DNA of 64,000 nucleotides, from positions 248,001-312,000 of the forward strand of contig NZ_VOBR01000001.1 of NCBI RefSeq assembly GCF_007845675.1, given 5' to 3'. The notes below the pieces were generated by a model, which did not search any database, was not told where the DNA came from, and saw only the letters and a list, made by a program, of their open reading frames with translations. The translations under genes were made by a program, and so were the position numbers. This document shows, one piece after another, positions 39,062 through 61,742 of this stretch. Source of the stretch: Lentzea tibetensis (GTDB lineage Bacteria; Actinomycetota; Actinomycetes; Mycobacteriales; Pseudonocardiaceae). Numbering within the stretch: the first letter of the stretch is position 1; every line of letters begins with the position of its first letter.

Positions 39062-39068
39062 GGTGATC

Positions 39069-39078
39069 ACCCTAGAGT
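39069..39078. promoter_or_regulatory. overlapping divergent -10 elements
   Basis: ACCCTAGAGT contains TAGGGT on the minus strand, 7 nt before the TerB-like ATG, and TAGAGT on the plus strand, 18 nt before the SnoaL-like ATG. They share two base pairs, so both promoters cannot be occupied at once. Confidence 0.45.
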
Positions 39079-41835: not shown

Positions 41836-41842
41836 CACCAGG

Positions 41843-42697
41843 TCAGATCCGATCGGCGGCGATGAGGAGGTAGTGGAAGCTGCCCTCGCGGTACGCGGTG
41901 AGGAACGGGTCCTCGATGCCGGTCGCCACGGACGACTCGGCGCGCAGCTCCCAGTACGGGATGGTCGCGGCGGTCAGGTCGACCACGTTGATCGGCACGA
42001 ACCCGTTGTCCGCCAACGCCTTGAAGTACGTGCTGCGGGCGTGGATGTTGCAGATGTAGTGCTGGTCGATCTGGCTGACCGCGCGCGACCGGCCGCCGGT
42101 CACGTCGTTGTAGCAGCCGGTGATCGTGACGTACCGGCCGCCGGGCGCGATGAGCCTGGCGTGCGCGGCGAACAGCTGGTGCAGGTCCACGTACATGGTG
42201 GACTCGTTGTTCCAGATGCCGCGCATCGAGCCGGTCTCGAAGCCGGTGTCGAGCATGTTCTTGAAGTGGTAGCGGACCTTGTCGTCGACACCGCGGCGGC
42301 GCGCCTCGCCGTTCGCGAACTCGACCTGCGTCTCGGAGATGCTGACGCCGTCCACGCGGCAGCCGAACCGCTGGTTGGCCATGATGCTCGTGCCACCGCG
42401 GCCGCAGCCCGCGTCCATCAGCCGGTCCTCGGGGCGGATGTCGCCGAGGTGGTCGAGCAGCACGTCCGCCTGCGCGGTCTCCAGCCGGTGCAGCTCGGCG
42501 ATGATCGCCTGGTCCCGCACCTCCACCGGGGCGTGGAGCACGGCCGGGTCGTACCCGCCGATGCCGTAGTGGTGGTGGTAGAGGTCGTCGACCTCGCCGA
42601 GCTTGATGTTGACCGGGTCCTTCTCCTTGTTCCAGTAGTCGGCGACCGAACGCTGGTAGTCGGTGCGCAGGACCGGTTTCACATCGGCAGTGGTCAT
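41843..42697 (-). CDS. gppmt: geranyl diphosphate 2-C-methyltransferase
   Basis: SAM-dependent methyltransferase of 284 residues that adds a methyl to C2 of GPP, the first step to 2-methylisoborneol. The SAM site is LMDAGCGRGGTSIMANQRFG; DLYHHHYGIGGYDPAVLHAP and WNNESTMYVDLHQLFAAHAR are hallmarks of this enzyme. The start at MTTADVKPVLRTDYQRSVAD is preceded by GAGGAG at 12 nt. It forms a two-gene operon with the cyclase; the cyclic-nucleotide-binding gene usual in this cluster is absent. Confidence 0.95.
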   Translation of the reverse strand: MTTADVKPVLRTDYQRSVADYWNKEKDPVNIKLGEVDDLYHHHYGIGGYDPAVLHAPVEVRDQAIIAELHRLETAQADVLLDHLGDIRPEDRLMDAGCGRGGTSIMANQRFGCRVDGVSISETQVEFANGEARRRGVDDKVRYHFKNMLDTGFETGSMRGIWNNESTMYVDLHQLFAAHARLIAPGGRYVTITGCYNDVTGGRSRAVSQIDQHYICNIHARSTYFKALADNGFVPINVVDLTAATIPYWELRAESSVATGIEDPFLTAYREGSFHYLLIAADRI

Positions 42698-42783
42698 GGT
42701 TCGCCTGGCTCCTCGTGGTTCTCGGTTGAGCGCCACCGAGACTTCCGCGCCCTCCGATCACCGGCCAGCCGCCAAGCGGGGGT

Positions 42784-47070: not shown

Positions 47071-47841
47071 CTAGCCGTGTTCGACAGCCAGAGCCGCGCC
47101 GCGGTGCTCGACGCGGTGGTTGGTGATGTCGAGCTGCCGCAGCGTGAAGTGCCGCAACTGCCCGAGCTGGCGCGTGGTCAGCCGGTCGCACACCCAGTCC
47201 CAGTGCAGCGACACCCAGTCGCCCGGCACCAGCTCACCCAGATATCCCAGCCCGGAGGCGGACCGCAGAGCCGACTCGACGCGCGGCGGGCCGAACGCGA
47301 GGTCGTGGCCGTCGTAGACCAGCGGGCGGGACCGCACGAGCGCCCGGTCGCCGTCCAGCGACTCGACCTGCCCCCACCGGATGCGGCACCGGTCGAGCAC
47401 GGTCAACGCCGCGGTGGCCTTGCGGTCGTCCCGCAACAGCCCGACCCACGGGTAGATGCAGAACACGTGGAAGCTGTGGTGCGGCACTCCCCCGGCCAGC
47501 ACGCTCTCGACCAGGTGCGGGAACTGCAGGCCGGTGCGCGGCCGGAACCGGTCCTCCATCGACGCCGCGATGTGCCCGAGCCGCAACGAGTCCAGCAACG
47601 GCGTGCCGACCCAGTAGGCCTCGACCACCCTGCGGTCCAGCGGGTCGGAGATGCCGGAACCCGAGGCGATCAGCTCGAGGTACGGCCAGGCGCCTGCGAA
47701 CCCGCGCGCCAGCTCGACCAGTCCGGGATCGACCACCCCGGCCGCGCCGTACTGCAGCAGAGCCGCGCTGTCCGCCGGCCCGCAGTAGCCCAGTGAGTTC
47801 GGCGGGTACGCGTAACGCACGAAGAGCTGGGCCCCGTTCAT
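47071..47841 (-). CDS. DUF6390 family hydrogenase-operon protein
   Basis: Protein of 256 residues, last gene of the hydrogenase operon. It starts GAQLFVRYAYPPNSLGYCGP and contains GSGISDPLDRRVVEAYWVGTPLL and HHSFHVFCIYPWVGLLRDDR, which match DUF6390, a family that I associate with actinobacterial [NiFe] hydrogenase loci. A conserved HWDWVCDRLTTRQL segment near the end is Trp/His rich. Role in maturation or regulation is not established. The start overlaps the hypC stop (ATGA). Confidence 0.82.
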   Translation of the reverse strand: MNGAQLFVRYAYPPNSLGYCGPADSAALLQYGAAGVVDPGLVELARGFAGAWPYLELIASGSGISDPLDRRVVEAYWVGTPLLDSLRLGHIAASMEDRFRPRTGLQFPHLVESVLAGGVPHHSFHVFCIYPWVGLLRDDRKATAALTVLDRCRIRWGQVESLDGDRALVRSRPLVYDGHDLAFGPPRVESALRSASGLGYLGELVPGDWVSLHWDWVCDRLTTRQLGQLRHFTLRQLDITNHRVEHRGAALAVEHG

Positions 47842-48065
47842 TCCGCCGCCATGATGTTCAGCATCGCGCGTGCGTCCTCCGCTTCGGCAGGGGTCATGAG
47901 GGACAGCGCGAAACCCATGTGCACCAGCACCCAGTCACCGGACTCCGGCGGGAAGTCCAGCAGGCTCGTGTTGATCGCGCGGCGCACACCGGCGATGTCG
48001 GCCACCATCAGGTCGGGATGACCTTCGTGGGGGCCGATGATCTCGGCGGGCAGTCCGAGGCACAT
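47838..48065 (-). CDS. hypC: HypC/HybG/HupF hydrogenase formation chaperone
   Basis: Chaperone of 75 residues that carries the Fe(CN)2CO precursor with HypD and hands it to the large subunit. The essential Cys2 is in MCLGLPAEII, and DWVLVHMGFALSLMTPAEAE is the typical second half. It lies 3 bp downstream of the DUF6893 micro-protein. Its partner hypD, and hypE and hypF, are not in the window and must be elsewhere. Confidence 0.95.
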   Translation of the reverse strand: MCLGLPAEIIGPHEGHPDLMVADIAGVRRAINTSLLDFPPESGDWVLVHMGFALSLMTPAEAEDARAMLNIMAAE

Positions 48066-48068
48066 GCG

Positions 48069-48167
48069 TCACATCCTGCTGATCTGCCGGTACCGCCTGA
48101 AGTCCTTGGCCGACCGCACGAGGAACACGGTCAGCGCGGCGATGATCAGCAGCTTGAGCACCTTCAC
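48069..48167 (-). CDS. DUF6893-like micro-protein, single membrane helix
   Basis: Peptide of 32 residues: one hydrophobic helix (VKVLKLLIIAALTVFLVRSA) and a basic tail (KDFRRYRQISRM). The GTG overlaps the protease stop (GTGA), consistent with every other junction of the operon, and AAGGAGG lies 10 nt upstream. The sequence resembles DUF6893 peptides found at the same place in other actinobacterial hydrogenase operons. A likely role is anchoring or assembly at the membrane (inference). Confidence 0.78.
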   Translation of the reverse strand: MKVLKLLIIAALTVFLVRSAKDFRRYRQISRM

Positions 48168-48634
48168 GAACACAGCTCCTCCTTCGTGGCGACGAAGCGT
48201 TGCACCGCGCGCAACGCCGGTTCGACAGCGGCCTCCACGGCAGGGCTGAGACCGAGGTGGGGCGAGGTGTCGGCCGGTTCGCAGGCCACCAGCAGCACCC
48301 GGTGCACGCTGCCGCCCAACGCGCGCAACAACCCCAGCACCTTGTCCGGGTCCAGGTCGTGCGCGTCGAGCGGTGCGGCATCCACAGTGGACACATCGAC
48401 TTCGAGAACGGTGACGCTGCCCGGTTCCAGGCCGCGCGGGGAGGCGTCCACGAGCACCAGCACGTCCCAGCCGTCGAGCAGCTCGTACGCCAGGTGCACG
48501 CCGCGGATGCCGAAGTCCTTCACCCGCACGTCCTCCGGCACGTCGAGCGAGCACAGCCTGCGGGCCACCTCGCAGCCGAAACCGTCGTCCCCCAGCAGGA
48601 CGTTGCCGACCCCCGCGACGAGCATCCTGGTCAT
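48164..48634 (-). CDS. [NiFe] hydrogenase maturation protease
   Basis: Endopeptidase of 156 residues that trims the C-terminal tail of the large subunit after nickel insertion. GVGNVLLGDDGFGCEVARRL at the N-terminus is the HyaD/HupD signature with the metal-sensing acidic residues; LLDGWDVLVLVDAS and a later conserved His region follow. Both ends overlap neighbours by 4 bp. Its target is presumably the hydrogenase large subunit three kilobases upstream in the same operon. Confidence 0.93.
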   Translation of the reverse strand: MTRMLVAGVGNVLLGDDGFGCEVARRLCSLDVPEDVRVKDFGIRGVHLAYELLDGWDVLVLVDASPRGLEPGSVTVLEVDVSTVDAAPLDAHDLDPDKVLGLLRALGGSVHRVLLVACEPADTSPHLGLSPAVEAAVEPALRAVQRFVATKEELCS

Positions 48635-49728
48635 ACCGGCTCCACCTCGTCCGGCGCGAAGTACAGGAAACGGCCGTGCCAGCGCTGGATGTCCGAGTCC
48701 GGGTCCTCCGGGCACAGCGCCAGGTGCACGTTGCCGTCGACGTCGTGCAGGATCTCCTCGACGACGGCGAGGCGTCCGGCGAGGAACAGGTCCTGCGCGT
48801 CGGCGCGCCGCGTGCCGGGACGCATCCGCACCCGGCTGCCCTTCCGCACCGGCACCCCACCGACGACCAGCCGCGGCGAGACGGACCGGATCGCGCCGTG
48901 CAGGCGTTCCATGATCTCCGGCGACAATCCGTCCACCCGGTCGATCAACGCCGCCGCGCGCGGGTCGGTCGCGCGCGCCTCTGCCTTCTCCTCGTCGGTC
49001 AGCACGAGCGTCCGCAACGTCAGGATCTCGTCGATCTCGGTGCCGTCGAACAGCTCTCCCGGGCTCTCCGGTGCGATCTCGGGGTGGTCGGGCAGGATGA
49101 TCGGCGCGGCCAGCACCATCGACCGGCACTGCGGCGGGCCGGCGAGCACGGGCCACGAACCGACGTTCGAGCACGTCGAGACCTCGAAGGACGCCCACTC
49201 CGGCGGGTCGGCCATCGACACGAACGCACCGTCCGGTACGTCGATCAACAGGTGCTGCGCGACCATCGCGAACGGCAACGCGTCGTCCCGCGTGACCAGA
49301 ACCCCTTCAGCAGCAGCGACGTTCCGCACGCGCACGCGCAACTTGACCGCCTGATAGGGCCCGGCGACCCGCCACGCCCTGATCCCGACCTCGACGTCGC
49401 CGTCCACGGTGTGCACGACCTCGTCGGCCAGCGCGCCGACCACACCGGTGAACGCGTGCTCGTGCTCGACGCCGGAGTCCCAGCCGTCCGTGCGCTCCAG
49501 CCGCAGGTACCGCACGGTCACCGTCACCGACGCGGAGTCGGGCGCGTCGAGCAGGCACTCGGTGAGGCTCTCGGTGCGCTCGGACGGGTCGTCGTACGCG
49601 GGCGGCATCAGCACGCCCCACTGGAACCGCGTCCGGTTCTTCTGCGCGGACTTCCGGTACGGGTAGAGGACGTACCCCTCGTACAGGACGGCGTCCGCCA
49701 CGCGCCGGGCGTGTTCCAGGAAAGTCAC
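48631..49728 (-). CDS. conserved hydrogenase-operon protein, 365 residues, function unknown
   Basis: Starts VTFLEHARRVADAVLYEGYV then LYPYRKSAQKNRTRFQWGVL, followed by beta-rich sequence (VRYLRLERTDGWDSGVEHEH; VKLRVRVRNVA) and a C-terminal PILPDHPEIAPESPGELFD-type segment with TLTDEEKAEARATDP, ending in an SH3-like LHDVDGNVHLALCPEDPDSD. It has few cysteines and no membrane helix. Position between DUF6084 and the protease, with GTGA/ATGA overlaps on both sides, ties it to hydrogenase biogenesis. I do not know a function. Confidence 0.85.
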   Translation of the reverse strand: MTFLEHARRVADAVLYEGYVLYPYRKSAQKNRTRFQWGVLMPPAYDDPSERTESLTECLLDAPDSASVTVTVRYLRLERTDGWDSGVEHEHAFTGVVGALADEVVHTVDGDVEVGIRAWRVAGPYQAVKLRVRVRNVAAAEGVLVTRDDALPFAMVAQHLLIDVPDGAFVSMADPPEWASFEVSTCSNVGSWPVLAGPPQCRSMVLAAPIILPDHPEIAPESPGELFDGTEIDEILTLRTLVLTDEEKAEARATDPRAAALIDRVDGLSPEIMERLHGAIRSVSPRLVVGGVPVRKGSRVRMRPGTRRADAQDLFLAGRLAVVEEILHDVDGNVHLALCPEDPDSDIQRWHGRFLYFAPDEVEPV

Positions 49729-50360
49729 GGCATCCGCTCCTCCACCGAGTCGAGCAGCGCCAGCAGCGTGGCGTCCCACGTGGGCAGCGCGCGAGTGGAC
49801 TTGAACCGGCGCAGAGCGTCGATGGTCTCGCGGCCGCACCGGATCCAGCCGCTGTTGGGGAAGTGCGTGTCGACCATCTGCCGCCACGTGGCGACGGGCA
49901 GCCGGAAGGAGACCTCCTTGCTCCACGGCACCTGCGTCACCTGCATCCGCCCGTCGTCGACGGCGAACACCGAGCCGCTGAACAGCAGCAGCAACGGCAC
50001 CTCGCCCTCTTCGAGACCGGCGAAGTACGCGCCGGAGGCGACCTCCAGGTCGTAGCCGCACGGCACGTCCAGGTCGACGTCGCACAGGCTGCTGAACCCC
50101 GGCACCATGACCGAGACGTTCGCCAGCTGCAACGGTTTCAGCGTCTCGCCCCACCGCGACACGTCACCGAAGAGATCAGCGAGCCGCTCGGCCTCGGCGG
50201 GGGTGTACCGCCGGCGGTGCGGCTCGATCCGCAGCTGGCACCGCAGCGCGATGGCGTCGACGCGGGTGTCCGAGGTGATCCGCAGCGTCAGCACCAGGCC
50301 CGGCGCCGCGGCGTACGGGTCGACGCGCGCTCCAACGCAGTCGAAACCCAGCTCGGTCAT
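49725..50360 (-). CDS. DUF6084 family hydrogenase-operon protein
   Basis: Protein of 211 residues: MTELGFDCVGARVDPYAAAP, then LTLRITSDTRVDAIALRCQL, RRRYTPAEAERLADLFGDVSRWGETL and WSKEVSFRLPVATWRQMVDT-HFPNSGW. This matches DUF6084, another family tied to actinobacterial hydrogenase operons. Beta-strand-rich and without obvious metal ligands. The ATG overlaps the DUF5947 stop (ATGA). Function not established. Confidence 0.85.
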   Translation of the reverse strand: MTELGFDCVGARVDPYAAAPGLVLTLRITSDTRVDAIALRCQLRIEPHRRRYTPAEAERLADLFGDVSRWGETLKPLQLANVSVMVPGFSSLCDVDLDVPCGYDLEVASGAYFAGLEEGEVPLLLLFSGSVFAVDDGRMQVTQVPWSKEVSFRLPVATWRQMVDTHFPNSGWIRCGRETIDALRRFKSTRALPTWDATLLALLDSVEERMP

Positions 50361-50935
50361 GACGCACCCGCCCGAGCCTTGAGCCGGTCGAAGAAACCCG
50401 TGATCGCCGTGTGCGCCTCCGCACCGCCGTCGAATCCCTGCCACGTCGAGCGCACCAGCCCGACGAGCTCGTAGCAAGAGTCCACCGGCACCAGGAAGCA
50501 CTCCCGTTCGTCCCTGCGCAGCAGGATCGCCTCGACGTCCGGCTCGGCCTCGCCCAGCAGGGGGTGCCCGGCGACGACCCGTTCCCACGCGGCGAGGTCC
50601 AGCAGGCACTCGGTGGCACCGGCCGGGCTCGGGTAGAACGCCTGGCCGTTCAGGACGAACACCACGCCGACCGGGATCTGCAGCTCGTCCCACTCGAACT
50701 CGGCCAGCCCTTCGTCACGCACCACGCGCTCGGGGATCGCGCGATAGCGGCCGGCGCCGCGCGCGGTGAAGAGCAGGTAGCAGGGACGGCACGCGCACAT
50801 CAGCGCCCGGTGTTCCAGGTCGACGACGTGACCGTGTTCCACCGGGATGCCAGTTCCGCACATCTCGCAGCGCTCGGGTGGTGGTGGCCGGGGCGCGGGC
50901 ACCGCGCCGACGAACCGTCCGAGCCCGCGGTTCAC
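50357..50935 (-). CDS. DUF5947 family hydrogenase-operon protein, Cys-rich
   Basis: Protein of 192 residues. An N-terminal CEMCGTGIPVEHGHVVDL and a CACRPCYLLF motif give five cysteines and a histidine suited to a zinc or iron-sulfur site; then GAGRYRAIPERV, QIPVGVVFVLNG, FYPSPAGATEC and CFLVPVDSCYELVGLVR. These blocks define DUF5947. GTG start overlaps the NifU-like gene stop (GTGA). It may assist assembly or electron transfer; unproven. Confidence 0.87.
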   Translation of the reverse strand: MNRGLGRFVGAVPAPRPPPPERCEMCGTGIPVEHGHVVDLEHRALMCACRPCYLLFTARGAGRYRAIPERVVRDEGLAEFEWDELQIPVGVVFVLNGQAFYPSPAGATECLLDLAAWERVVAGHPLLGEAEPDVEAILLRRDERECFLVPVDSCYELVGLVRSTWQGFDGGAEAHTAITGFFDRLKARAGAS

Positions 50936-51708
50936 GACGCCACCGCCACCCGCAGCCCCTGCCCGTCGGACAACAGCGGCACCGGGTCGAGGTGCTGCTC
51001 CAGCCCGTCGAGCCCGGCGCCGTGCAACCGCACGTCGAACGCCGATCCGCAGCCGGGACAGGTCAGCCGCTCCCCCGCCAGCGTGCCGGTGCCGAGCGAG
51101 CCCGCGCACACCGGGCAGGTGTCGCGGTAGGCGTACAACGTGCCACGCACCGCACACGTCAGCACGGCGACGCCGTTGACCGACACGACCTCCGGCTTGC
51201 CGGTGGGCGGACCCGGTGCGGGCAGTGCGGTCCAGCCGGGCGGCGGTCCCATCCCGATCTGCAGCACGGTCTCGCGCACCACGCCCTCGACGTCGATGCC
51301 GGACAGCTCCGGTGCCGCGACCTCGATCGCGCCCTCGATCGCCATCCGCACGGTCTCCGTCGACGACGGGCAGCCGGAACAGCTGCCCTCCAGCCGCAGG
51401 TGCGCGACGCCGTCGTCGGTGACGCCGAGGTACTCGACGCCACCCGCGTGCGACCCGAGGTAGGGCCGCACCTTGTCCAGCGCGCGCTGGACGCGGGTGT
51501 CGACGTCGTCGGGGTGCAGGCCGTGCACCAGCAGCAGGCTCTCCACCAGCGGATCGGCCGTGAGCGTCCGGACGTCGACGACCTCGGCGATCCGTTCGAG
51601 GCAGTCGCCGTACAGCCCGACGAGCAGCCGGACCAGTTCCTCCGCGCGGGGCGGCAGCGAGGCGACCAGTTCCTCGATGCGCGCACCGACTTCGCGCGCG
51701 TCGGTCAT
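50932..51708 (-). CDS. NifU-like/iron-sulfur protein, HhyE-like putative electron carrier
   Basis: Protein of 258 residues with two parts. Residues about 60-150 form a NifU C-terminal (Nfu) domain with the cluster-binding GSCSGCPSSTETVRMAIEGA. Residues about 175-258 look like a Rieske/ferredoxin domain, but where Rieske proteins have Cys-X-His and Cys-X-X-His this one has DTCPVCAG and TCPGCGSAFDVR, giving four cysteines, so a rubredoxin-like iron or zinc site is more likely. In mycobacteria the equivalent gene next to the group 1h subunits (HhyE) is proposed to pass electrons to the respiratory chain. ATG overlaps the large-subunit stop. Confidence 0.82.
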   Translation of the reverse strand: MTDAREVGARIEELVASLPPRAEELVRLLVGLYGDCLERIAEVVDVRTLTADPLVESLLLVHGLHPDDVDTRVQRALDKVRPYLGSHAGGVEYLGVTDDGVAHLRLEGSCSGCPSSTETVRMAIEGAIEVAAPELSGIDVEGVVRETVLQIGMGPPPGWTALPAPGPPTGKPEVVSVNGVAVLTCAVRGTLYAYRDTCPVCAGSLGTGTLAGERLTCPGCGSAFDVRLHGAGLDGLEQHLDPVPLLSDGQGLRVAVAS

Positions 51709-53504
51709 GTCGCGAGCGTGACGAGACCAGCGGGCGAGTGGACCTGTTCGAGCACCTTTCCGTTGCCGAGGAACATGTGCACGCCGCACGGCAGACACGG
51801 GTCGAAGCTGCGCACCGCGCGCATGATGTCGATGCCCTTGAAGTTGTCCGGCGGGTTCTCCTCGAAGATCGGCGTGTTCTGCACCGCGTCCTCGTACGGG
51901 CCGGGCGTGCCGAACGAGTCGCGCACGCTGCCGTTCCACGGGGTCGGCGGGTACGGGTGGTAGTTCGCGATCTTGCCGTCGCGGATCACCATGTGGTGCG
52001 ACAGCACGCCGCGGACGGCCTCGGTGAAGCCGCAGCTGAACGCGTTCTCCGGGACCTTGAACGGGGTCCACGTCTTCGTGCGGCCCGCGCGGATCTCCGC
52101 GAGCGCCTGCTCGACGAAGTACAGCGCGACGGCGGCCGAGTAGGCCTGGAAGTACGTGCGGGCGCGGTTGCGCTCGAGCGCGTTGCTCCACCGCGGGATC
52201 TTCCACTCGAAGCTGACCTCGGGCTTCAACGCCGTGCGCGGCAGGTTGATCTGCACGCTGTGCCCGGTCGCCTTCACGTAGCCGCAGTCGACGAGCCCGG
52301 AGAGCGCGGTCGACCACAGCCTGGCGATCGGGCCGCCACCGGTGTCGAGCGCGAGGTGGTCCGCGCCGTCGAACCAGCGCGGCGACATGGTCCAGCTGTA
52401 CTTGTCGTCGAAGTCGCGCTTCTGCGGCCTGGGGATGGTGTGCTGGTTCCACGGGTGCCGCACGTCGATCGGGTTGCCCAGCTCGTCGTGCGTCACGAAC
52501 ACCTCGCGACCCTCCCAGTCCTCGTAGTACGAGGAGCCGAGCAGGATGCGGATGCCGAGGTTGATGTCGACGAGGCTGTTGGTGACGAGCTTCCCGTCGA
52601 CGACGACGCCGGGGGTGACGAACATCTTGCGGCCCCACGACGCCATGTTGCGGTAGGTGAAGTCGCAGTGCTCCGGGTCGTTCAGGCTGCCCCAGCAGCC
52701 GAGCAGCACGCGCCGCTGGCCGACCTTCTCGTAGCCGGGCAGTGCCTCGTAGAAGAAGTCGAACAGGTCGTCGTGCATCGGAACGACGCGCTTCATGAAC
52801 TCCACGTAGCGCATCAGCCGGGTCAGGTAGTCCGTGAACAGCTGCACGGTCGCGACCGTGCCGACCCCGCCGGGGTACAAAGTGGACGGATGGACGTGCC
52901 TGCCCTCCATGAGGCAGAACATCTCCCGCGTCCACCGCGACACCTGCAGCGCCTCGCGGTAGAACTCGCCCTCCAGCGGGTTGAGCGAGCGCATGATGTC
53001 ACCGATGGTCTTGTACCCGTGGTCGCCCGCGTGCGGCGACTCGGTGCGGTTGGCCAGCTCCAGCACGCCGGGGTTGGTCTCGCGGACCATCTTCTCGCAG
53101 TAGTCCACGCCGACCAGGTTCTCCTGGAAGATGTTGTGGTCGAACATGTACTCGGCGGCCTCACCGAGGTTGATGATCCACTCGCCGAGGTGCGGCGGCG
53201 CCACGCCGTAGGCCATGTTCTGGTTGTAGACCGAGCACGTCGCGTGGTTGTCACCGCAGATGCCGCAGATGCGGCTGGTGATGAAGTGCGCGTCGCGCGG
53301 GTCCTTGCCCTTCATGAAGATGCTGTAGCCGCGGAAGATCGACGAGGTGCTGTGGCACTCGACGACCTCCTTCTGCTTGAAGTCGATCCGGGTGTAGATG
53401 CCGAGGCTGCCGACGATCCTGGTGATCGGGTCCCACGCCATGTCGACGGTCTGGGACTCGGGCACCGCCGAGTCGTCGGTGCGCTGGCCCTTGGTCGCGG
53501 TCAT
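51705..53504 (-). CDS. hhyL: [NiFe] hydrogenase large subunit, group 1h (actinobacterial high-affinity type)
   Basis: Catalytic subunit of 599 residues that oxidises H2, probably at atmospheric levels. The nickel ligands are in the L1 motif TSRICGICGDNHATCS (Cys80, Cys83) and the L2 motif SFDPCLPCGVHM (Cys570, Cys573); both forms are diagnostic of group 1h/5 enzymes. A 23-residue tail after His576 should be removed by the operon-encoded protease. WDPITRIVGSLGIYTRIDFK opens the conserved fold. Four bases separate it from the small-subunit gene. Confidence 0.97.
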   Translation of the reverse strand: MTATKGQRTDDSAVPESQTVDMAWDPITRIVGSLGIYTRIDFKQKEVVECHSTSSIFRGYSIFMKGKDPRDAHFITSRICGICGDNHATCSVYNQNMAYGVAPPHLGEWIINLGEAAEYMFDHNIFQENLVGVDYCEKMVRETNPGVLELANRTESPHAGDHGYKTIGDIMRSLNPLEGEFYREALQVSRWTREMFCLMEGRHVHPSTLYPGGVGTVATVQLFTDYLTRLMRYVEFMKRVVPMHDDLFDFFYEALPGYEKVGQRRVLLGCWGSLNDPEHCDFTYRNMASWGRKMFVTPGVVVDGKLVTNSLVDINLGIRILLGSSYYEDWEGREVFVTHDELGNPIDVRHPWNQHTIPRPQKRDFDDKYSWTMSPRWFDGADHLALDTGGGPIARLWSTALSGLVDCGYVKATGHSVQINLPRTALKPEVSFEWKIPRWSNALERNRARTYFQAYSAAVALYFVEQALAEIRAGRTKTWTPFKVPENAFSCGFTEAVRGVLSHHMVIRDGKIANYHPYPPTPWNGSVRDSFGTPGPYEDAVQNTPIFEENPPDNFKGIDIMRAVRSFDPCLPCGVHMFLGNGKVLEQVHSPAGLVTLAT

Positions 53505-53508
53505 GTCG

Positions 53509-54549
53509 TCACCAGCTCTTCTGGTAGCCGGTTGTGAGCTCGGTGCCCTTGCGGCGCCACTTGGGTTCCTTGTCGACCTTGCGCATCGTGTAGTTGCGCA
53601 GCGCCCTGATCACGACGCCGTACGCGCCGCTCGCCGTCGACGAGACGCGTGAGCCGGGTGGCGGGTCCATGAACGGCATGAACTTGTCCGGGAAGCCGGG
53701 CATGGTGCAGGCGATGCAGATGCCGCCGACGTTCGGGCAGCCGCCGACGCCGTTGATCCAACCGCGCTTCGGCACGTTGCACTTCACGACGGGGCCCCAG
53801 CAGCCGAGCTTCACGAGGCACTTCGGCGAGCCGTACTCGTTCGCGAACTGGCCCTCCTCGTAGTACCCGCCGCGGTCGCAGCCCTCGTGCACGGTGTGCT
53901 CGAAGAGCCACCTCGGGCGCAGCGCCTCGTCCAGCGGGATCATCGGCGCCTGTCCGGCGACCTGGTACAGCAGGTAGAGGATCGTCTCGGACAGGTTGTC
54001 CGGGTGGATCGGGCAGCCGGGCACGCACACGATCGGCAGGCCCGCCTTGGACTTCCAGTCCCAGCCGAGGTAGTCGGGCACGCCCATCGCGCCGGTCGGG
54101 TTGCCCGCCATGGCGTGGATGCCGCCGTAGGTGGCGCAGGTGCCGACCGCGAGCACCGCGGTCGCCTTGGGTGTCAGCCGGTCGAGCCATTCGCTGGTCG
54201 TCATCGGCTGGCCCGTCGCCGGGTTGTTGCCGAAGCCGCACCAGTAGCCCTCGTCCTTGATGGCCTCGTTGGGGATCGAGCCCTCCACGACGAGGACGAA
54301 CGGGTCGAGCTCACCCCGGTCCGCCTTGTGCCACCACTCGATGAAGTTGTCGGCGCCGGTCTCCGGCCCGCACTCGAAGTCGATCAGCGGCCAGTGGACC
54401 GCGACCTTCGGCAGACCGGGCAGCGCGCCGAGGACGATCTCCTCGATGCTGGGCTGCGTCGCCGCGGTGAGCGCGACCGAGTCGCCGTCGCAGCTCAGCC
54501 CGCCGTTCATCCAGAGGATGTGCACCACCGGTTCGGTTTCCGCGGCCAT
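53509..54549 (-). CDS. hhyS: [NiFe] hydrogenase small subunit, group 1h
   Basis: Electron-transfer subunit of 346 residues. It has no Tat signal peptide, as in other group 1h enzymes. The proximal cluster loop GGLSCDGDSVAL contains an Asp where standard enzymes have Cys, matching the known 3Cys-1Asp ligation of this group. Other ligands are visible in VGTCATYGG, VPGCPIHPDN, HEGCDRGGYYEEGQF, CLVKLGCWGPVVKCN and GGCPNVGGICIACTMPGFPD. The ATG has GAGGAGG 8 nt upstream. First gene of the ten-gene operon. Confidence 0.97.
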   Translation of the reverse strand: MAAETEPVVHILWMNGGLSCDGDSVALTAATQPSIEEIVLGALPGLPKVAVHWPLIDFECGPETGADNFIEWWHKADRGELDPFVLVVEGSIPNEAIKDEGYWCGFGNNPATGQPMTTSEWLDRLTPKATAVLAVGTCATYGGIHAMAGNPTGAMGVPDYLGWDWKSKAGLPIVCVPGCPIHPDNLSETILYLLYQVAGQAPMIPLDEALRPRWLFEHTVHEGCDRGGYYEEGQFANEYGSPKCLVKLGCWGPVVKCNVPKRGWINGVGGCPNVGGICIACTMPGFPDKFMPFMDPPPGSRVSSTASGAYGVVIRALRNYTMRKVDKEPKWRRKGTELTTGYQKSW

Positions 54550-54689
54550 GAGTGGCCTCCTCGCGCCGCGAGAGTGGATGTCAAATTCGACGTTAGACCC
54601 GCGCTGTCTGCCCAGCAAGATGACAAAAGACCTGGTCAGAATGCATGCAGGTGCTATTTCCACTTCCGGCATTTCCGGATTTCGTGCGC

Positions 54690-54695
54690 TATCTT
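54690..54695 (+). promoter_or_regulatory. -10 element (TATCTT) for leaderless gene
   Basis: TATCTT is followed by six bases and the GTG of the small isomerase-like gene, without a ribosome site. The 150-bp gap to the hydrogenase operon must also hold the hydrogenase promoter, which I could not place. Confidence 0.5.
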
Positions 54696-54701
54696 GAACG
54701 G

Positions 54702-54986
54702 GTGAAGTTCCTCGTTCTGTGGCGCATGGAGCTGACGCTGTTGTCGCGCGGGATGGCGGCGGCGGTCGCCCGGATGCCCGAGTACGCGGAACCGCTGGAG
54801 CGCGACGGCCGAGTGGTGGCTCGCTACCACCTCGTGGGGCAGCACGGCGGCGCGTGGATCTACGACGTGTCGTCCAACGAGGAGCTCGACCGGCTGCTCG
54901 GGATGTCGCCGGTCTACAACCTGGCCCGCTACGAGGTCCACGCGCTCGCGGAGATGAACCCACCGGATCCCGGATTGACGGAGTAG
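54702..54986 (+). CDS. muconolactone isomerase-like small protein
   Basis: Protein of 94 residues: VKFLVLWRMELTLLSRGMAA, LERDGRVVARYHLVGQHGGA and WIYDVSSNEELDRLLGMSPV, the dimeric ferredoxin-like pattern of the muconolactone isomerase/YciI-like group. It diverges from the hydrogenase small-subunit gene and precedes a regulator and iron transporter on the same strand. Enzymatic role is doubtful; perhaps a ligand-binding or sensing protein tied to hydrogenase (inference). Confidence 0.75.
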   Translation: MKFLVLWRMELTLLSRGMAAAVARMPEYAEPLERDGRVVARYHLVGQHGGAWIYDVSSNEELDRLLGMSPVYNLARYEVHALAEMNPPDPGLTE

Positions 54987-55007
54987 CACGACCGGCGAAC
55001 ACTGGCT

Positions 55008-55334
55008 GTGATGGGCGCCACCGGACGGGAGTTGGCGCGCGAGCGCCACTGGATCTGCGCGCAGCGGCTGCGCGACCGCCGCCGCGCACTCGGCCTGACC
55101 CAGATGGACGTCGTGACCCGGCTCGGCGGGTGCACCACCAACCGCGTGCTCAGCGAGATGGAGAACGGCCGGGGCCTCGACCTCGGCTGGCTGCCAGAGC
55201 TCGCCACCGCACTCGACTGCACCGTCACGTACCTGGTCGGTCTCACCGCCGACCCGACGCGGTGGGAGCCGGACGACCACGGTCCCGCCGCCAGGTCCAG
55301 CAGCTGGATCCTCGGCCCGGACATCCCGGACTGA
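55008..55334 (+). CDS. XRE-family helix-turn-helix regulator
   Basis: DNA-binding protein of 108 residues. The Cro/CI-type HTH is RLRDRRRALGLTQMDVVTRL then TTNRVLSEMENGRGLDLGWL, followed by LATALDCTVTYLVGLTADPT and a short tail RSSSWILGPDIPD. It lies 22 bp upstream of the iron-type ABC importer and downstream of the isomerase-like gene, so it may control the importer/hypAB unit or the divergent hydrogenase operon. Start could be GTG 55008 or the next codon ATG. Confidence 0.85.
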   Translation: MMGATGRELARERHWICAQRLRDRRRALGLTQMDVVTRLGGCTTNRVLSEMENGRGLDLGWLPELATALDCTVTYLVGLTADPTRWEPDDHGPAARSSSWILGPDIPD

Positions 55335-55356
55335 ACCGCACTCCCCGGAGGCCCCG

Positions 55357-56304
55357 ATGAAGTGGCCCTCGTCCCTGCTCGCTCTCGTCCTGCTCGCCGC
55401 GTGCTCCGCGGCACCCACCCCGAGCGCGAGCGCTCCGCCGAACATCACCCTCTACACGTCGGTCACCCAGAACACCGTCGACGAGGTCGTCAACGGGTTC
55501 AAGGCAGCCAACCCCGGCGCGAACGTGGAGGTCTTCCGCGCCACCACCGGCAACCTCAACGCACGCATCGCGGGCGACCAGCGCACCGGCGGCGTGCAGG
55601 CCGACGTCATCTGGGGAACCGACCCACTGTCCATGCAGTCCTATGCGGCACAAGGGTTTCTGCGGGCGAAGCCGATCACCGCGCCGGACGGGATCCCATC
55701 GCTCGGCGTCGACCAGCTCTACGCGACGCGCGTGCTGCACGTCGTGATCGTGGCGGCCAAGGGCGTCCCCGTCGCCGACTGGCCGGACCTCGCCGGGCCC
55801 GCGGTGCAGGGCTCGGTCGCCGTGCCCGACCCGGCCGCCGCGGGGTCCGCGCTCGCCGCGCTCGGCCACTTCGGCGTCGACTACTACCGCACGCTCAAGG
55901 ACAACGGCGCCGCACAGGTCGCCACGGTGCCCGAGGTGATCACCACCGTCGCCGAGGGCCGGTACAAGGCCGGGATCACGCTCGACTCCGAGGTGCGCGC
56001 GGCGATCACCAAGGGCTCACCCGTCCAGCTGGTGTGGCCGTCGTCGGGCGCGGTCGCCGTGTACAGCCCGATCGCGGCGACGACCCGTGAGCAGAACCGT
56101 TCCGGCGCCGAGAAGTTCCTGTCCTACGTGCTGTCCGCCGACGGGCAGAAGGCGATCGCCAAGACCGGCTGGCAGCCCGTGCTGCCCGGTGTCGCCGGAC
56201 CGCCGAAGCCCGAGGGTGCGAAGGAGATCAATCCCGACTGGACGGAGCTGTTCGGGAAGCAGCAGGAGGTTCTGAAGCAGTACCAGGCGTTGTTCGGCAA
56301 GTGA
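55357..56304 (+). CDS. ferric-type ABC transporter substrate-binding lipoprotein
   Basis: Periplasmic-type binding protein of 315 residues; lipobox in MKWPSSLLALVLLAACSAAP (Cys16). ITLYTSVTQNTVDEVVNGFK, FRATTGNLNARIAGDQRTGG, ADVIWGTDPLSMQSYAAQGF and KFLSYVLSADGQKAIAKTGW place it in the FbpA/AfuA-like family that binds ferric iron, though related members bind 2-aminoethylphosphonate or thiamine. Its stop overlaps the permease start. Being in one unit with hypA and hypB suggests a metal needed for hydrogenase. Confidence 0.88.
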   Translation: MKWPSSLLALVLLAACSAAPTPSASAPPNITLYTSVTQNTVDEVVNGFKAANPGANVEVFRATTGNLNARIAGDQRTGGVQADVIWGTDPLSMQSYAAQGFLRAKPITAPDGIPSLGVDQLYATRVLHVVIVAAKGVPVADWPDLAGPAVQGSVAVPDPAAAGSALAALGHFGVDYYRTLKDNGAAQVATVPEVITTVAEGRYKAGITLDSEVRAAITKGSPVQLVWPSSGAVAVYSPIAATTREQNRSGAEKFLSYVLSADGQKAIAKTGWQPVLPGVAGPPKPEGAKEINPDWTELFGKQQEVLKQYQALFGK

Positions 56305-57833
56305 GGACCGCGCTCGTCCTCGTGCTGCTGGCGGCGCTCGTCGGAGCGCCGCTGGTGGCACTCGCGCGGGTCGCGGGCGAACGCGGCTGGTCCGCCGCGT
56401 TCGACACGTTGACCTCGCTCGAGACCGGTACGGCGGTGCGCAACACGCTGGTGCTCGCGGTCGTGGTGACCGTGCTGGGCTGTGCCTGCGGCACGGCGGT
56501 CGCGCTGACGACGCGCGATGCCGGGCGGTGGCTGCGACTGGCGTTGCTGCTGCCGGTGCTGGTGCCGGAGTTCGTGCTCGGGTTCGGGTGGAGCCAGGCG
56601 TACGGGCCGTCCGGCTTCGCCGACGACCTGCTCGGCGTGGAGGTGCCCGGCCTGCTCGGGCCGGTCGGGATCGTGCTGGTGCTGACCGTCCACGCCGTGC
56701 CGCTCGCCTACCTCGCGGTCGCGGCCGGGCTCGCGGTGCGCGCCGAGCCGGATCTCGAACGCGCGGCGCGGGCGTCCGGCGCCGGCCCGTTCGTCGTGCT
56801 GCAGACGGTGCTGCTTCCGTTGCTGCGCCTGCCTTTGCTCGCCGCCGGCGTACTGGTGTTCGTGACGACGGTGAACAGCTTCGCGATCCCGCAGGTGCTC
56901 GGCGGCTACCCCACGATGACCACCCTGGTGTACGCGGACCTCAACCTGTCCGCCGATCCGGACGCGTTCGGTCAGCTGACCACCGTGGCGCTGGCGATGG
57001 CCGCGCTGGTGCTCGTGGTGGTGGGGCTGGCGGACACCGTGCTCGGCTCGTCCGTGGTGCGGACCGGGACTCCCGGTGCGGTTGCTGGTCGTTCTCGCCG
57101 TCACTGGTTCCTCGGTGCGTACACGGTTTTCGCCATCGGACTGCCAATGCTGGTCGTGCTGGGTGTGTCGATCACCCGCGGTCCCGGTCTGGCGCCGGTG
57201 CCCGCGAACTGGACGCTGGCGAACTACGTCACCGCGTTCGCCGGTCCGACCTGGCCCGCTCTCCTGCGTACCTTGCTGCTCGCCGTGCTGGCTGCGGCGA
57301 TCCTGACCGTCCTCAGCGGACTCGTGGTGTCGCTGCGCCGGCCGGTGCTCGGGACGGTGCTGACGCTGTGCTTCGCGGTGCCCGGCTCGGCTTTGGCGGT
57401 GGGCACGCTGATCGCGTACGGCAGGCTGCTCGGCACGTCCGCGGCGATCATCCTGGTGGTGTACCTGGCGAAGCTGTGGGCGGTCGCGTACCGGCCGGTG
57501 CTCGCCGGGGTGGACCGGCTCGGCGCTGATCTCGTGCCCGCCGCGCGGTCGAGCGGGGCCCGTCCGTTCACCGCGGTGCGGACCGTGGTGCTGCCGCCTC
57601 TCTCGACGGCCCTGGCCACCGCGGCCGGGCTGGTGTTCGTGCTCGCGTCGCACGAGCTGACCATGTCGAGCATCCTGTACGGACCGGGCAGCCAGACGTT
57701 CGCCGTGGTGGTGCTCAACCAGCAGCAGCTCGGTGACGTCGGGGCGAGCGCGGCGCTGTCCGTCGTGCTGACCGCGCCGCTCGCGCTGCTGGCCGTGCTG
57801 CTCCTGCGAGGTGCGCGTGCCAGAACGTCCTGA
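56301..57833 (+). CDS. ferric-type ABC transporter permease (fused, FbpB type)
   Basis: Permease of 510 residues made of two homologous six-helix halves, as in FbpB/SfuB. EAA-like loops occur in both halves: ERAARASGAGPFVVLQTVLL and VPAARSSGARPFTAVRTVVLPPLS. The first helix is MRTALVLVLLAALVGAPLVA. GTG start overlaps the binding-protein stop (GTGA). The end overlaps the ATPase gene by about 17 nt. Confidence 0.9.
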   Translation: MRTALVLVLLAALVGAPLVALARVAGERGWSAAFDTLTSLETGTAVRNTLVLAVVVTVLGCACGTAVALTTRDAGRWLRLALLLPVLVPEFVLGFGWSQAYGPSGFADDLLGVEVPGLLGPVGIVLVLTVHAVPLAYLAVAAGLAVRAEPDLERAARASGAGPFVVLQTVLLPLLRLPLLAAGVLVFVTTVNSFAIPQVLGGYPTMTTLVYADLNLSADPDAFGQLTTVALAMAALVLVVVGLADTVLGSSVVRTGTPGAVAGRSRRHWFLGAYTVFAIGLPMLVVLGVSITRGPGLAPVPANWTLANYVTAFAGPTWPALLRTLLLAVLAAAILTVLSGLVVSLRRPVLGTVLTLCFAVPGSALAVGTLIAYGRLLGTSAAIILVVYLAKLWAVAYRPVLAGVDRLGADLVPAARSSGARPFTAVRTVVLPPLSTALATAAGLVFVLASHELTMSSILYGPGSQTFAVVVLNQQQLGDVGASAALSVVLTAPLALLAVLLLRGARARTS

Positions 57834-58788
57834 CCTCGCGACCGGACCGGCGCCCGCACTTGCCTGCCGTGACCTCGTGCTCGGCCACGGGTCGGCACCC
57901 GTGCTGTCCGGCCTGAACCTGACGTTGCCGCCGGGCCGCACGCTCGCGCTGCTCGGGCCGTCCGGCTCGGGCAAGACGACCCTGCTGCACGCGATCGCCG
58001 GGTTCGTGACGCCGATGTCCGGCTCGGTGCTGCTCGGCGGGCGCGACGTGCACGGGGTGCCGCCCGAGCGGCGCGCGGTGGGCGTGGTGTTCCAGAGCTG
58101 CGCGCTGTGGCCGCACCTCACCGTCCTCGACACCGTCGCCTACCCGCTGCGCCGGGCGGGCGCGTCTGGCGGGGTGGCTCGTGATCAGGCCGCGGAGTTG
58201 TTGTCCCGCTTGAAGATCTCCTCGTTGGCGGCGCGCAAGCCTGCCGAGCTGTCCGGTGGCGAGCAGCAACGGGTGGCGCTCGCACGGGCGCTGGCGCGCA
58301 GGCCGGACGTGTTCCTGTTCGACGAGCCGACCGCGCACCTCGACGCCCACCTGCGGACCGTCGTGCTGGACGAGATCGCGCGGCAACGCGGCGAGGGCGG
58401 TGCGGCCGCGGTCTACGCGACGCACGACGCGACCGAGGCGCTGGCGATCGCCGACCTCGTCGCCGTGCTGCACGGCGGCGGGCTCGCCCAGCTGGGGACA
58501 CCGGAGGAGGTCTACGCGGCGCCGGTCGACGAACAAGTGGCTCGGCTGACCGGCCCGGTGTCGGTGTTCGACGGCGCGCTGGTGCGGCCGGACTGGGCGT
58601 GCCTCGGCGGTCCGCTCACCGCCACGGTGGCCGAGGTGAGGTTCCGCGGCCCGCACACCGACTACCTGCTGAGCACCCCGCGCGGCTGCGTGCTGGTCCG
58701 TTCCGCCGGGCCGCCGGAACACGAACCGGGCGCTTCGGTCGGCTGGACCTTGTCACGCCGGGTTACGCTGAGCCCAGAGGTGCGTTGA
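57817..58788 (+). CDS. ferric-type ABC transporter ATP-binding protein (FbpC type)
   Basis: ATPase of about 323 residues. Walker A GPSGSGKTTLLHAI, Q-loop VFQSCALWPHLTV, signature ELSGGEQQRVALARAL, Walker B DVFLFDEPTAHLDAHLR and switch ATHDATEALAI are present; a C-terminal TOBE-like part (LTATVAEVRFRGPHTDYLLS) matches FbpC proteins. Start may be this GTG, preceded by GAGG, or GTG 57811. Only one base separates its stop from hypA. Confidence 0.9.
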   Translation: MPERPDLATGPAPALACRDLVLGHGSAPVLSGLNLTLPPGRTLALLGPSGSGKTTLLHAIAGFVTPMSGSVLLGGRDVHGVPPERRAVGVVFQSCALWPHLTVLDTVAYPLRRAGASGGVARDQAAELLSRLKISSLAARKPAELSGGEQQRVALARALARRPDVFLFDEPTAHLDAHLRTVVLDEIARQRGEGGAAAVYATHDATEALAIADLVAVLHGGGLAQLGTPEEVYAAPVDEQVARLTGPVSVFDGALVRPDWACLGGPLTATVAEVRFRGPHTDYLLSTPRGCVLVRSAGPPEHEPGASVGWTLSRRVTLSPEVR

Positions 58789-58789
58789 C

Positions 58790-59119
58790 GTGCACGAACT
58801 CTCGATCATGAGCAGCGTCGTGGACACCGTGCGCGAGCGGGTCCCCGATGCCACGGTGACCTGCGTGCGGATGGAGATCGGGAAGCTCTCCGGTGTGCTC
58901 GTCGACTCGGTCCTGTTCTGCTTCGACGTCGTCGTCGCGGGAACGAACCTCGAAGGCGCGTCGCTCGACATCAGCTCGCCACCCGGCCGTGCCCGCTGCC
59001 GGGCGTGCGGATCCTCGTTCGACCTGGACGACCTGATCTTCCTCTGCTCGTGCGGCAGCGCCGACGTCCAGGTGCTGTCCGGACGGGAACTGCGGATCAC
59101 ATCGGTGGAGGTGGCCTGA
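58790..59119 (+). CDS. hypA: hydrogenase nickel-insertion protein HypA
   Basis: Metallochaperone of 109 residues that delivers nickel to the large subunit with HypB. The Ni-binding MHELS motif opens the protein (His2), followed by MEIGKLSGVLVDSVLFCFDV; the zinc site is CRACGSSFDLDDLIFLCSCG. GTG start with GAGG 9 nt upstream. One base after the ATPase gene of the iron-type importer and one base before hypB. Confidence 0.96.
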   Translation: MHELSIMSSVVDTVRERVPDATVTCVRMEIGKLSGVLVDSVLFCFDVVVAGTNLEGASLDISSPPGRARCRACGSSFDLDDLIFLCSCGSADVQVLSGRELRITSVEVA

Positions 59120-59120
59120 C

Positions 59121-59819
59121 ATGTGCGCGACCTGCGGCTGCTCGGAGGAGACTCACACGGTCGTTCTCGAACAGGACGTGCTGGCCAAGAACAACCACCT
59201 GGCCGAGCACAACCGCGCCTGGCTCGCGGCCAGGAACGTGCTGGCGCTCAACATCATGAGCTCGCCGGGCGCGGGCAAGACGACGTTGCTCGAACGCACG
59301 ATCCGCTCGCTCGGCGGCGCGCCGGTCATCTCGGTGATCGAGGGCGACCAGGAGACCCGGTTCGACGCGGACCGCATCCGCACGACCGGCTGCGAGGTGG
59401 TGCAGATCAACACCGGCGCCGGCTGCCACCTCGACGCGTCGATGGTCCACAACGGACTGCACGAGCTCGACCCGCCGCGCGACTCGATCGTGCTGGTGGA
59501 GAACGTCGGCAACCTGGTGTGCCCGGCGCTGTTCGACCTCGGCGAGTCGTACCGGGTGGTGATCACGTCGGTCACCGAGGGCGCGGACAAGCCGCGCAAG
59601 TACCCGCACATGTTCGTCGTCGCGGACCTGGTGCTGCTGAACAAGGTGGACCTGTTGCCGCACGTGGACTTCGACGTCGACCGGTTCGTCTCGGACGCGC
59701 GGATGGTGCGTCCCGACGTGACCGTGCTGCCGCTGTCCGCGACGGTGGGGACCGGTGTGGACGCATGGCTGGACTGGTTGCGGGACAAGTGTGCGCGGGT
59801 GTGTGCGCCGGCTGTCTAG
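59121..59819 (+). CDS. hypB: hydrogenase nickel-incorporation GTPase HypB
   Basis: GTPase of 232 residues. The high-affinity metal motif MCATCGCSEE is at the N-terminus, without the His-rich stretch that stores nickel in some relatives. P-loop LNIMSSPGAGKTTLLER, IEGDQETRFDADRI, NTGAGCHLDASMV, VENVGNLVCPALFDLGE and LLNKVDLLPHV are the standard SIMIBI GTPase blocks. GTP hydrolysis drives nickel transfer from HypA to the hydrogenase. Confidence 0.97.
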   Translation: MCATCGCSEETHTVVLEQDVLAKNNHLAEHNRAWLAARNVLALNIMSSPGAGKTTLLERTIRSLGGAPVISVIEGDQETRFDADRIRTTGCEVVQINTGAGCHLDASMVHNGLHELDPPRDSIVLVENVGNLVCPALFDLGESYRVVITSVTEGADKPRKYPHMFVVADLVLLNKVDLLPHVDFDVDRFVSDARMVRPDVTVLPLSATVGTGVDAWLDWLRDKCARVCAPAV

Positions 59820-59822
59820 GCT
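59817..59822 (+). promoter_or_regulatory. -10 element (TAGGCT) for leaderless gene
   Basis: TAGGCT overlaps the hypB stop codon and lies exactly six bases before the next ATG, giving the unknown downstream gene its own possible leaderless promoter. Confidence 0.45.
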
Positions 59823-59828
59823 CGCCCG

Positions 59829-60317
59829 ATGGGTGTCACCTGGGGCGTTGTCGCCTACCCCGAAAACCACGACCGCGACGAGCTGATCTCCGCCTGGAAG
59901 GAGCTCGGCCGGTACGCGACCGACGACTACGAACTGAACATCGTGCACGGCACCGACGTGGTCTCCTTCCACGCCGAGGAGACCGGCGAGGTGACCGTGG
60001 CCGCGACCACCGCGTGGCCCGGCCTGCTGACGCGGCTCAACGGGCTGTCCTGCGGTGACGGCTCGTACGACCAGTTCGAGCAGCTCTTCGACGGCTATGA
60101 GCTCTTCGTGCCGTACTACGTGCACGACCCCAAGATCGTCGCACCCGGATCGGTGGCGGACGGCCTGCGCAGCGCGTCGATCGACGACCTGTACGGCTCC
60201 GTGGGCTGGACGGCGAAGAACTCCGAGGACCTCGACCTGGCCCGCCTGGCCGGAGAGTTGCGGGCCGCCGCACTGCTGGCCGACGAGTACCGCATGATGA
60301 TCAGGGTCAACTTCTAG
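59829..60317 (+). CDS. conserved hypothetical protein
   Basis: Soluble protein of 162 residues: MGVTWGVVAYPENHDRDELI, then AWKELGRYATDDYELNIVHG and TTAWPGLLTRLNGLSCGDGS, acidic overall and aromatic-rich (GYELFVPYYVHDPKIV). I do not recognise the family and see no metal site. It follows hypB by 9 bp but may use its own leaderless promoter. The last four bases overlap the convergent alcohol dehydrogenase gene. Confidence 0.7.
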   Translation: MGVTWGVVAYPENHDRDELISAWKELGRYATDDYELNIVHGTDVVSFHAEETGEVTVAATTAWPGLLTRLNGLSCGDGSYDQFEQLFDGYELFVPYYVHDPKIVAPGSVADGLRSASIDDLYGSVGWTAKNSEDLDLARLAGELRAAALLADEYRMMIRVNF

Positions 60318-61352: not shown

Positions 61353-61742
61353 TCAGACGGCCAGGGCGTCCCGCACCTTGCCCACCACTTCGTCCTCGGT
61401 CTCGGCCAGGTGACCGTCGGCCTCGGCCACCTCGCGGCAGATCGCGAGCACGGCGCCGGGGAACGTCGCGGCCTCCTCGGGCGACTTGGCGACCAGGATC
61501 TTCATCGAGCGCCGCAGCGCCTCGAGCACGCGCTCCTCGAGCTGGGCCTCCGTGCCCTCCGGCAGCTTCACGCGGGAGCTGCCCAGCACCTCGCGCAGGT
61601 CGCGCGAGAGGTTGACCATCGCCCTGATCCCGGCGAACCGCTCCTCGACCACCGGCCCAGGATCAGCGTGGGACACCAGCACCATCGCGCCGTAGACGGC
61701 CGTGCGCAGCGTCCGGCATTCCTCGTCGGAGTAGAAAATCAT
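61353..61742 (-). CDS. TerB-like small helical protein (paralog 2)
   Basis: Protein of 129 residues, paralogous along its whole length to the one at 38669-39061: shared RTLRTAV(F/Y)GAMVLVS, LPEG, MKIL(G/V)AK and VLAICREVA(T/E)ADG. The ADGHLAETEDEVVGK end fits the TerB-like ADG-x4-E pattern. The ATG has TAGGGT six bases upstream, the same hexamer as the paralog, implying a leaderless mRNA. Function unknown. Confidence 0.76.
   Translation of the reverse strand: MIFYSDEECRTLRTAVYGAMVLVSHADPGPVVEERFAGIRAMVNLSRDLREVLGSSRVKLPEGTEAQLEERVLEALRRSMKILVAKSPEEAATFPGAVLAICREVAEADGHLAETEDEVVGKVRDALAV

Follow-up and report, generated by a model that had tools for sequence, protein, structure and literature searches.

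A 64,000-nucleotide stretch of the Lentzea tibetensis genome (contig NZ_VOBR01000001.1, positions 248,001 to 312,000 of the forward strand; hereafter the window) carries an ATP-binding cassette (ABC) importer in one gene row with hypA and hypB, beside a divergent NiFe-hydrogenase operon that contains hypC. We tentatively read these two units as the halves of a maturation variant without HypD, HypE and HypF, in which the importer would feed assembly of the iron site. HypD, HypE and HypF are the proteins that produce and carry the Fe(CN)2CO unit. In the window genome, a draft of 105 contigs that is 98.7% complete, HypD had no PF01924 match, HypE had none above its cut-off (two matches of 43 and 31 bits against 251.6, TIGR02124), and HypF, searched for in this genome only, was represented by a 60-position match alone (TIGR00143, 21.7 bits against 466.1). 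Weak HypE matches of the same kind occurred in all 14 control genomes. This genome-wide result changed the possible role of the importer.

A recent review of NiFe-cofactor assembly takes all six HypABCDEF proteins as necessary (PMC12134894), and the open-licence full-text literature (a scope that leaves subscription papers and preprints outside) contained, by title or abstract start, no description of HypDEF-less or importer-linked hydrogenases. If the proposed reading is true, hydrogenases keeping HypA, HypB, HypC and the protease but lacking HypD, HypE and HypF would represent a natural bypass, DUF6390 would acquire a role, and the questions of where the Fe(CN)2CO unit comes from and how it is transferred would become testable from a new side. 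Such a variant would matter, too, for surveys in which hhyL is the marker of H2 oxidisers (PMC8027828).

Layout of the two divergent gene units

The unit with the importer consists of the following genes (window coordinates throughout):

54702 to 54986, + strand: MIase, a muconolactone-isomerase-like small protein, first gene of the unit (Pfam PF02426, 4e-9; longer frame 54645 to 54986)
55008 to 55334, + strand: XRE-type regulator (HTH_31/HTH_3 slightly under the Pfam cut-offs; HTH_31 26.4 bits against 27)
55357 to 56304, + strand: solute-binding protein (SBP), lipoprotein-like (SBP_bac_11, 9.5e-27; also SBP_bac_8/6/1, Pfam)
56301 to 57833, + strand: importer permease (BPD_transp_1 in two stretches, Pfam)
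57811 to 58788, + strand: importer ATPase (ABC_tran, 8e-37; GTG 57817 as alternative start)
58790 to 59119, + strand: hypA, nickel metallochaperone (PF01155, 1.6e-29)
59121 to 59819, + strand: hypB, nickel-insertion GTPase (TIGR00073, 278 bits against a cut-off of 121; Pfam CobW/HypB)

The first-pass annotation of this DNA had described the regulator, SBP, permease, ATPase, hypA and hypB as one same-strand unit, and its gaps of 22, -4, about -17, 1 and 1 bases were confirmed; the ATPase/permease overlap is 17 bases with the start at GTG 57817 and 23 with the longest start, GTG 57811. MIase, on the same strand, ends 21 bases before the XRE start and likewise precedes XRE in five other loci (L092, L094, L103, L110 and L112); a PDB sequence search with it gave no match. 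A scan of 54400 to 60000 yielded no promoter-like site (0.1 in shuffles) and one terminator-like site within the ATPase gene (1.2 in shuffles), which says neither for nor against a single transcript. Both nickel-insertion proteins, HypA and HypB, are present, HypA passing the Pfam cut-off and falling under that of NCBIfam (79 bits against 88). The zinc motif of HypA reads CxxC...CxC instead of CxxC...CxxC, as in L076, L092, L152 and the HypD-positive L087 and L195; the occurrence in these last two led us to reject the CxC variant as a marker.

The divergent unit, a hydrogenase structural operon at 47071 to 54549 on the - strand, starts 152 bases from MIase and comprises, with a short frame between the protease and hypC, the following genes in order:

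53509 to 54549, - strand: hhyS, hydrogenase small subunit (NCBIfam NiFe(Se) small-subunit models, under their cut-offs)
51705 to 53504, - strand: hhyL, hydrogenase large subunit (intact RICGICG and DPCLPCGVH motifs; 23-residue tail)
50932 to 51708, - strand: NifU-Rieske protein (PF01106, PF00355)
50357 to 50935, - strand: DUF5947 (PF19372)
49725 to 50360, - strand: DUF6084 (PF19562)
48631 to 49728, - strand: conserved cluster protein, with no Pfam family, that occurs in other clusters
48164 to 48634, - strand: hydrogenase maturation protease (PF01750)
47838 to 48065, - strand: hypC (PF01455, 1.1e-17), whose product begins MCLG, so that Cys2 is present
47071 to 47841, - strand: DUF6390 (PF19927, 3e-91), a helical domain and a HypC-like domain (residues ~152-240)

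That hyp genes usually sit with other hyp genes, and that such an importer is normally unlinked, had been the earlier picture; it was incomplete, as the unit is not isolated but divergently adjacent to this hydrogenase/hypC operon. The best solved relative of hhyL is the actinobacterial-type hydrogenase (AH) HofG (5aa5, 1086 bits over residues 5-576), which we take to be the Cupriavidus AH. Clusters of the HofG type have the same ancillary genes as the window cluster, which differs from them in having no hypDEF within it. The window hydrogenase is presumably of group 1h, which is characterised by oxidation of atmospheric H2; the label is given by resemblance rather than by HydDB classification. 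Compared with HypABCDEF maturation of NiFe-hydrogenases, hypA, hypB, hypC, the protease and a standard large subunit are common to both, whereas hypD, hypE and hypF were not found in the window genome and the importer and DUF6390 stand in the cluster instead.

Distribution of the importer and of HypD

Conserved linkage in relatives, proposed in the first-pass annotation as a check, was borne out. A scan of species-representative contigs, with an alignment of three SBPs as the query, returned 25 loci, with Actinobacteria (including Acidimicrobiia, Egibacteraceae, Euzebyaceae and Pseudonocardiales) and Chloroflexi named in their titles. Within the flank examined, the importer stands with DUF6390 in 23 of them, part of which also contain hydrogenase or hyp genes. 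The other two are L101 and, at the end of its contig, L094; contig ends shorten many of the 25. The locus of Actinocrinis puniceicyclus (L092) repeats the window order gene by gene (MIase, XRE, SBP, permease, ATPase, hypA, hypB), divergent from hhyS. Among the loci read, hypAB directly follow the ATPase only in the window and in L092, and they lie elsewhere in the locus in L110, L112 and L172. A further conserved family in the importer loci was considered and rejected, since clustering of unassigned open reading frames (ORFs) yielded no family present in more than 6 of the 39 loci examined. One record titled Chloroflexi (G128, L173:1-17349) has two tandem hydrogenase operons, a ~44% relative followed by the 1h type; DUF6390 follows each, hypC is clear only after the second, and the importer accompanies the second.

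HypD was found in none of the 27 SBP-carrying records of the first set, which represent 26 distinct genomes (G138 is a record of G082), and the strain record of Actinocrinis puniceicyclus DSM 45618 is likewise without it. Of these 26, G134 alone had a HypE above the cut-off, as a piece at a contig end, and G126 showed a C-terminal fragment. A 1h-type large subunit is present in nine, namely the window genome and eight others at 76-86% identity, the full-length proteins of G095, G120, G122, G128 and G131 being 81-86% identical to that of the window. A 38-48% relative is present in five (G128 has both), while six have weak matches only and seven have none.

Two further samples served as controls. 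In 120 relatives including the window genome (SBP threshold >40% identity, with at most 18 candidates per genome scored), HypD occurred in 42, a large-subunit match in 37, and an SBP above 40% in G095, G082 and the window genome. All 23 of these relatives with a 1h-type large subunit and no importer have HypD, and the three with the importer all lack it. A phylum sample of 396 genomes (at most 43 importer candidates per genome scored) included 51 with a large subunit (E 1e-100 or better); besides the window genome, HypD was found in 46 of the 50 and the importer in 5. Across 65 1h-type rows, equal to 64 genomes because G516 is counted twice, the HypD-less and HypD-positive counts are 9 and 3 with the importer and 4 and 49 without it (Fisher 4e-6, or 1e-7 without three truncated assemblies). 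The HypD-less, importer-negative genomes are G322, G454, G184, whose contig ends early and inside the cluster, and G151; the absence from G322 and G454 probably reflects assembly gaps, because HypE or HypF is present at the hydrogenase. A large-subunit tree of 69 rows, including four outgroup rows, requires 8 changes for the importer and 11 for HypD loss. In five independent pairs, HypD loss was concordant with the importer in a mean of 3.0 and opposite in 0.4 (3.1 and 0.0 without the three truncated assemblies).

DUF6390 and the solute-binding protein

Several comparisons hint that the C-terminal domain of DUF6390 is HypC-like, with modest scores. A Foldseek search with the model of this domain placed HypC as the top two matches, and VIA-align fitted 71 of 71 HypC residues to the model at 2.1 A, with model residue 152 at HypC residue 2. 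The hhalign score against HypC was 35, the maximum in 200 column shuffles being 19. In the model this domain would match HypC along its full length, placing a Cys opposite Cys2 and a His opposite the conserved His; these key residues are assigned by structure, and the Cys pairing is unconfident. It differs from HypC in sitting behind a helical domain of ~150 residues that bears conserved Cys/His of its own. A PDB sequence search with DUF6390 gave nothing up to E 1, and the literature scope given above holds no paper on it. A defence role for XRE or DUF6390 was rejected, as PADLOC reported none.

In the DUF6390 tree, a branch (95/94) has 28 importer rows on one side and five rows that belong to HypD-positive genomes on the other. 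On the importer side falls G151, a complete genome (100%, 20 contigs) with hypA, hypB, hypC, protease, DUF6390 and a 1h-type hydrogenase, in which genome searches found neither HypD nor an importer of the window type; it belongs to a clade of eight with seven importer-linked rows (100/99). Divergent from its DUF6390, at 75 to about 190 bases depending on the start codon, lies a FecBCD importer (Peripla_BP_2, FecCD and ABC ATPase; L152:2920-5972, - strand). Importers of the FecBCD type are typical of chelated metals. A HypD-positive locus without the importer (L087, from G087) retains, next to its hydrogenase, both MIase and XRE together with a DUF6390 that falls on the other branch.

The SBP had earlier been placed in the ferric family, which holds for its predicted fold and not for a ferric function as such. 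The AlphaFold2 (AF2) model, with a predicted local distance difference test (pLDDT) value of 92, adopts the FbpA/AfuA/2-aminoethylphosphonate (AEP) fold. VIA-align tied FbpA with the sugar-phosphate binder AfuA, the metal-citrate binder MctA and the phosphonate-type STM0429, and the nearest NCBIfam model was that of the AEP binder phnS2, at 73 bits under a cut-off of 392.75. Paired tyrosines (195/196) are the iron ligands of FbpA, and mutants in these residues are named among the structure matches of the SBP comparison. An alignment of 23 SBPs, made without residue-level superposition, contains no conserved tyrosine pair: Y33 alone is invariant, and Y96, Y177 and Y309 are nearly so. For this reason a plain FbpA ferric importer was rejected. 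In common with importers of the FbpABC, AfuABC and PhnSTUV types, the window importer has the SBP fold, a two-stretch permease and an ATPase, but it differs in an invariant set of its own (FRAxT, DPL and PxPxxAxSA), in scores far under the NCBIfam cut-offs and in its link to a hydrogenase. A plasmid search with the SBP gave 59 records, all below 60% identity, the ten matches listed lying at 32.6-35.1%.

Proposed maturation route and alternatives

Retention of HypA, HypB, HypC, the protease and an intact large subunit suggests that the hydrogenase is still matured. HypDEF were not found, while in two phyla the cluster retains both the importer and a protein with a HypC-like domain; most simply, something that the iron site needs would be taken up. 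The imported compound would be small, in the simplest case a metal complex or a precursor of a ligand, and would pass to DUF6390 and HypC, which would supply the large subunit with its iron site and so stand in for the HypCDEF route. Nickel insertion by HypA and HypB, encoded in the same row of genes, would come next, and the protease would finally cut the large-subunit tail. The material imported may be such a complex or precursor, or else the Fe(CN)2CO unit as such.

Several observations weigh against this HypDEF-less route. All five importer genomes of the phylum sample have HypD, and strict mutual exclusion of importer and HypD was accordingly rejected. In G342 and G279, hypD and its neighbours lie on contigs other than those of the 1h locus and the importer, the hypD contig of G279 also bearing a second kind of hydrogenase. 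G171 has these genes on three contigs, one with a large-subunit piece beside hypDEF, one with another such piece (93% identical to that of the window) and one with the importer. In G426 and G464 all hydrogenases are of ~41-44% identity; the match of G464 is the weakest, and DUF6390 is missing from its short contig. The closest counterexample to exclusion is G426 (L161, L162; G426:C1), a genome that lacks a 1h-type large subunit and has importer and DUF6390 ~10 kb away from a set of hypCDEF genes. In a draw blind to the SBP, with the window genome left out, the HypD-less and HypD-positive counts become 2 and 3 with the importer against 4 and 48 without it (p 0.08); omission of the truncated assemblies gives 2 and 3 against 1 and 48 (p 0.02). 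Five independent pairs are too few for significance, and the FecBCD-DUF6390 adjacency of G151 is a single case that may be a chance neighbourhood.

The strongest alternative, though an unlikely one, is that the importer supplies only metal, as iron or nickel (chelate), while the loss of hypDEF is a separate matter and cyanide and CO come from unlinked, unrecognised enzymes. The FbpA-family fold, the shared gene row with the nickel-insertion genes hypA and hypB, and the chelated-metal type of the G151 importer are in its favor. However, it leaves the frequent absence of HypD from importer genomes unexplained, the 23 SBPs have no conserved tyrosine pair, and of the loci read, many being shortened, only the window and L092 place hypAB right after the ATPase. 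The earlier proposal of a dedicated metal supply for hydrogenase maturation is kept in part: the linkage in 23 of 25 loci places the transporter with maturation, but not as a ferric importer as such.

Somewhat less probable again is a more specific form of uptake, in which the importer would take an environmental ready-made iron-cyanide/carbonyl complex or a cyanide-bearing precursor for DUF6390 and HypC to load. The core would then be salvaged, not made, and two unrelated importer types (the SBP type and FecBCD) would have been recruited.

It is improbable that the hydrogenase is not matured at all, with hypDEF lost, the enzyme dead or waiting, and the importer a linked nutrient system of organophosphate or phosphonate type. 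The phnS2 model as nearest relative agrees with such a role, as does an alkaline phosphatase or SurE gene a few genes from SBP relatives (31-36% identity) in the two plasmid records, of 59, that were examined. Against it, wherever an importer row covers the large-subunit motifs these are intact, the five full-length relatives remain 81-86% identical to the window protein, the protease, hypA, hypB and hypC are retained in the window, and the linkage extends over records titled Actinobacteria and Chloroflexi. We give equally little credence to a detection artefact, with hypDEF in unassembled DNA or too divergent: the genomes are mostly metagenome-assembled or drafts, G322 and G454, in which HypD was not found, have short contigs that show HypE or HypF beside the hydrogenase, and the G184 contig ends within the cluster, but the same HypD model matches 46 of 50 hydrogenase genomes, HypD is lacking in the window genome, the Actinocrinis puniceicyclus DSM 45618 record and the 20-contig, 100% complete G151, and it lies inside the examined stretch in 18 of 27 HypD-positive 1h phylum loci while the window cluster is contiguous without it.

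Other features of the window lie around these units. Directly after hypB, an ORF at 59829 to 60317 (+ strand, 162 aa) belongs to no Pfam or NCBIfam family. Two alike proteins of ~130 residues (TLRTAV.GAMVLVS..DPG), encoded ~22 kb apart at 38669 to 39070 and 61353 to 61742 (both - strand), flank the cluster. At 40759 to 42736 (- strand), terpene-synthase-like and methyltransferase genes resemble what we take to be a 2-methylisoborneol pair.
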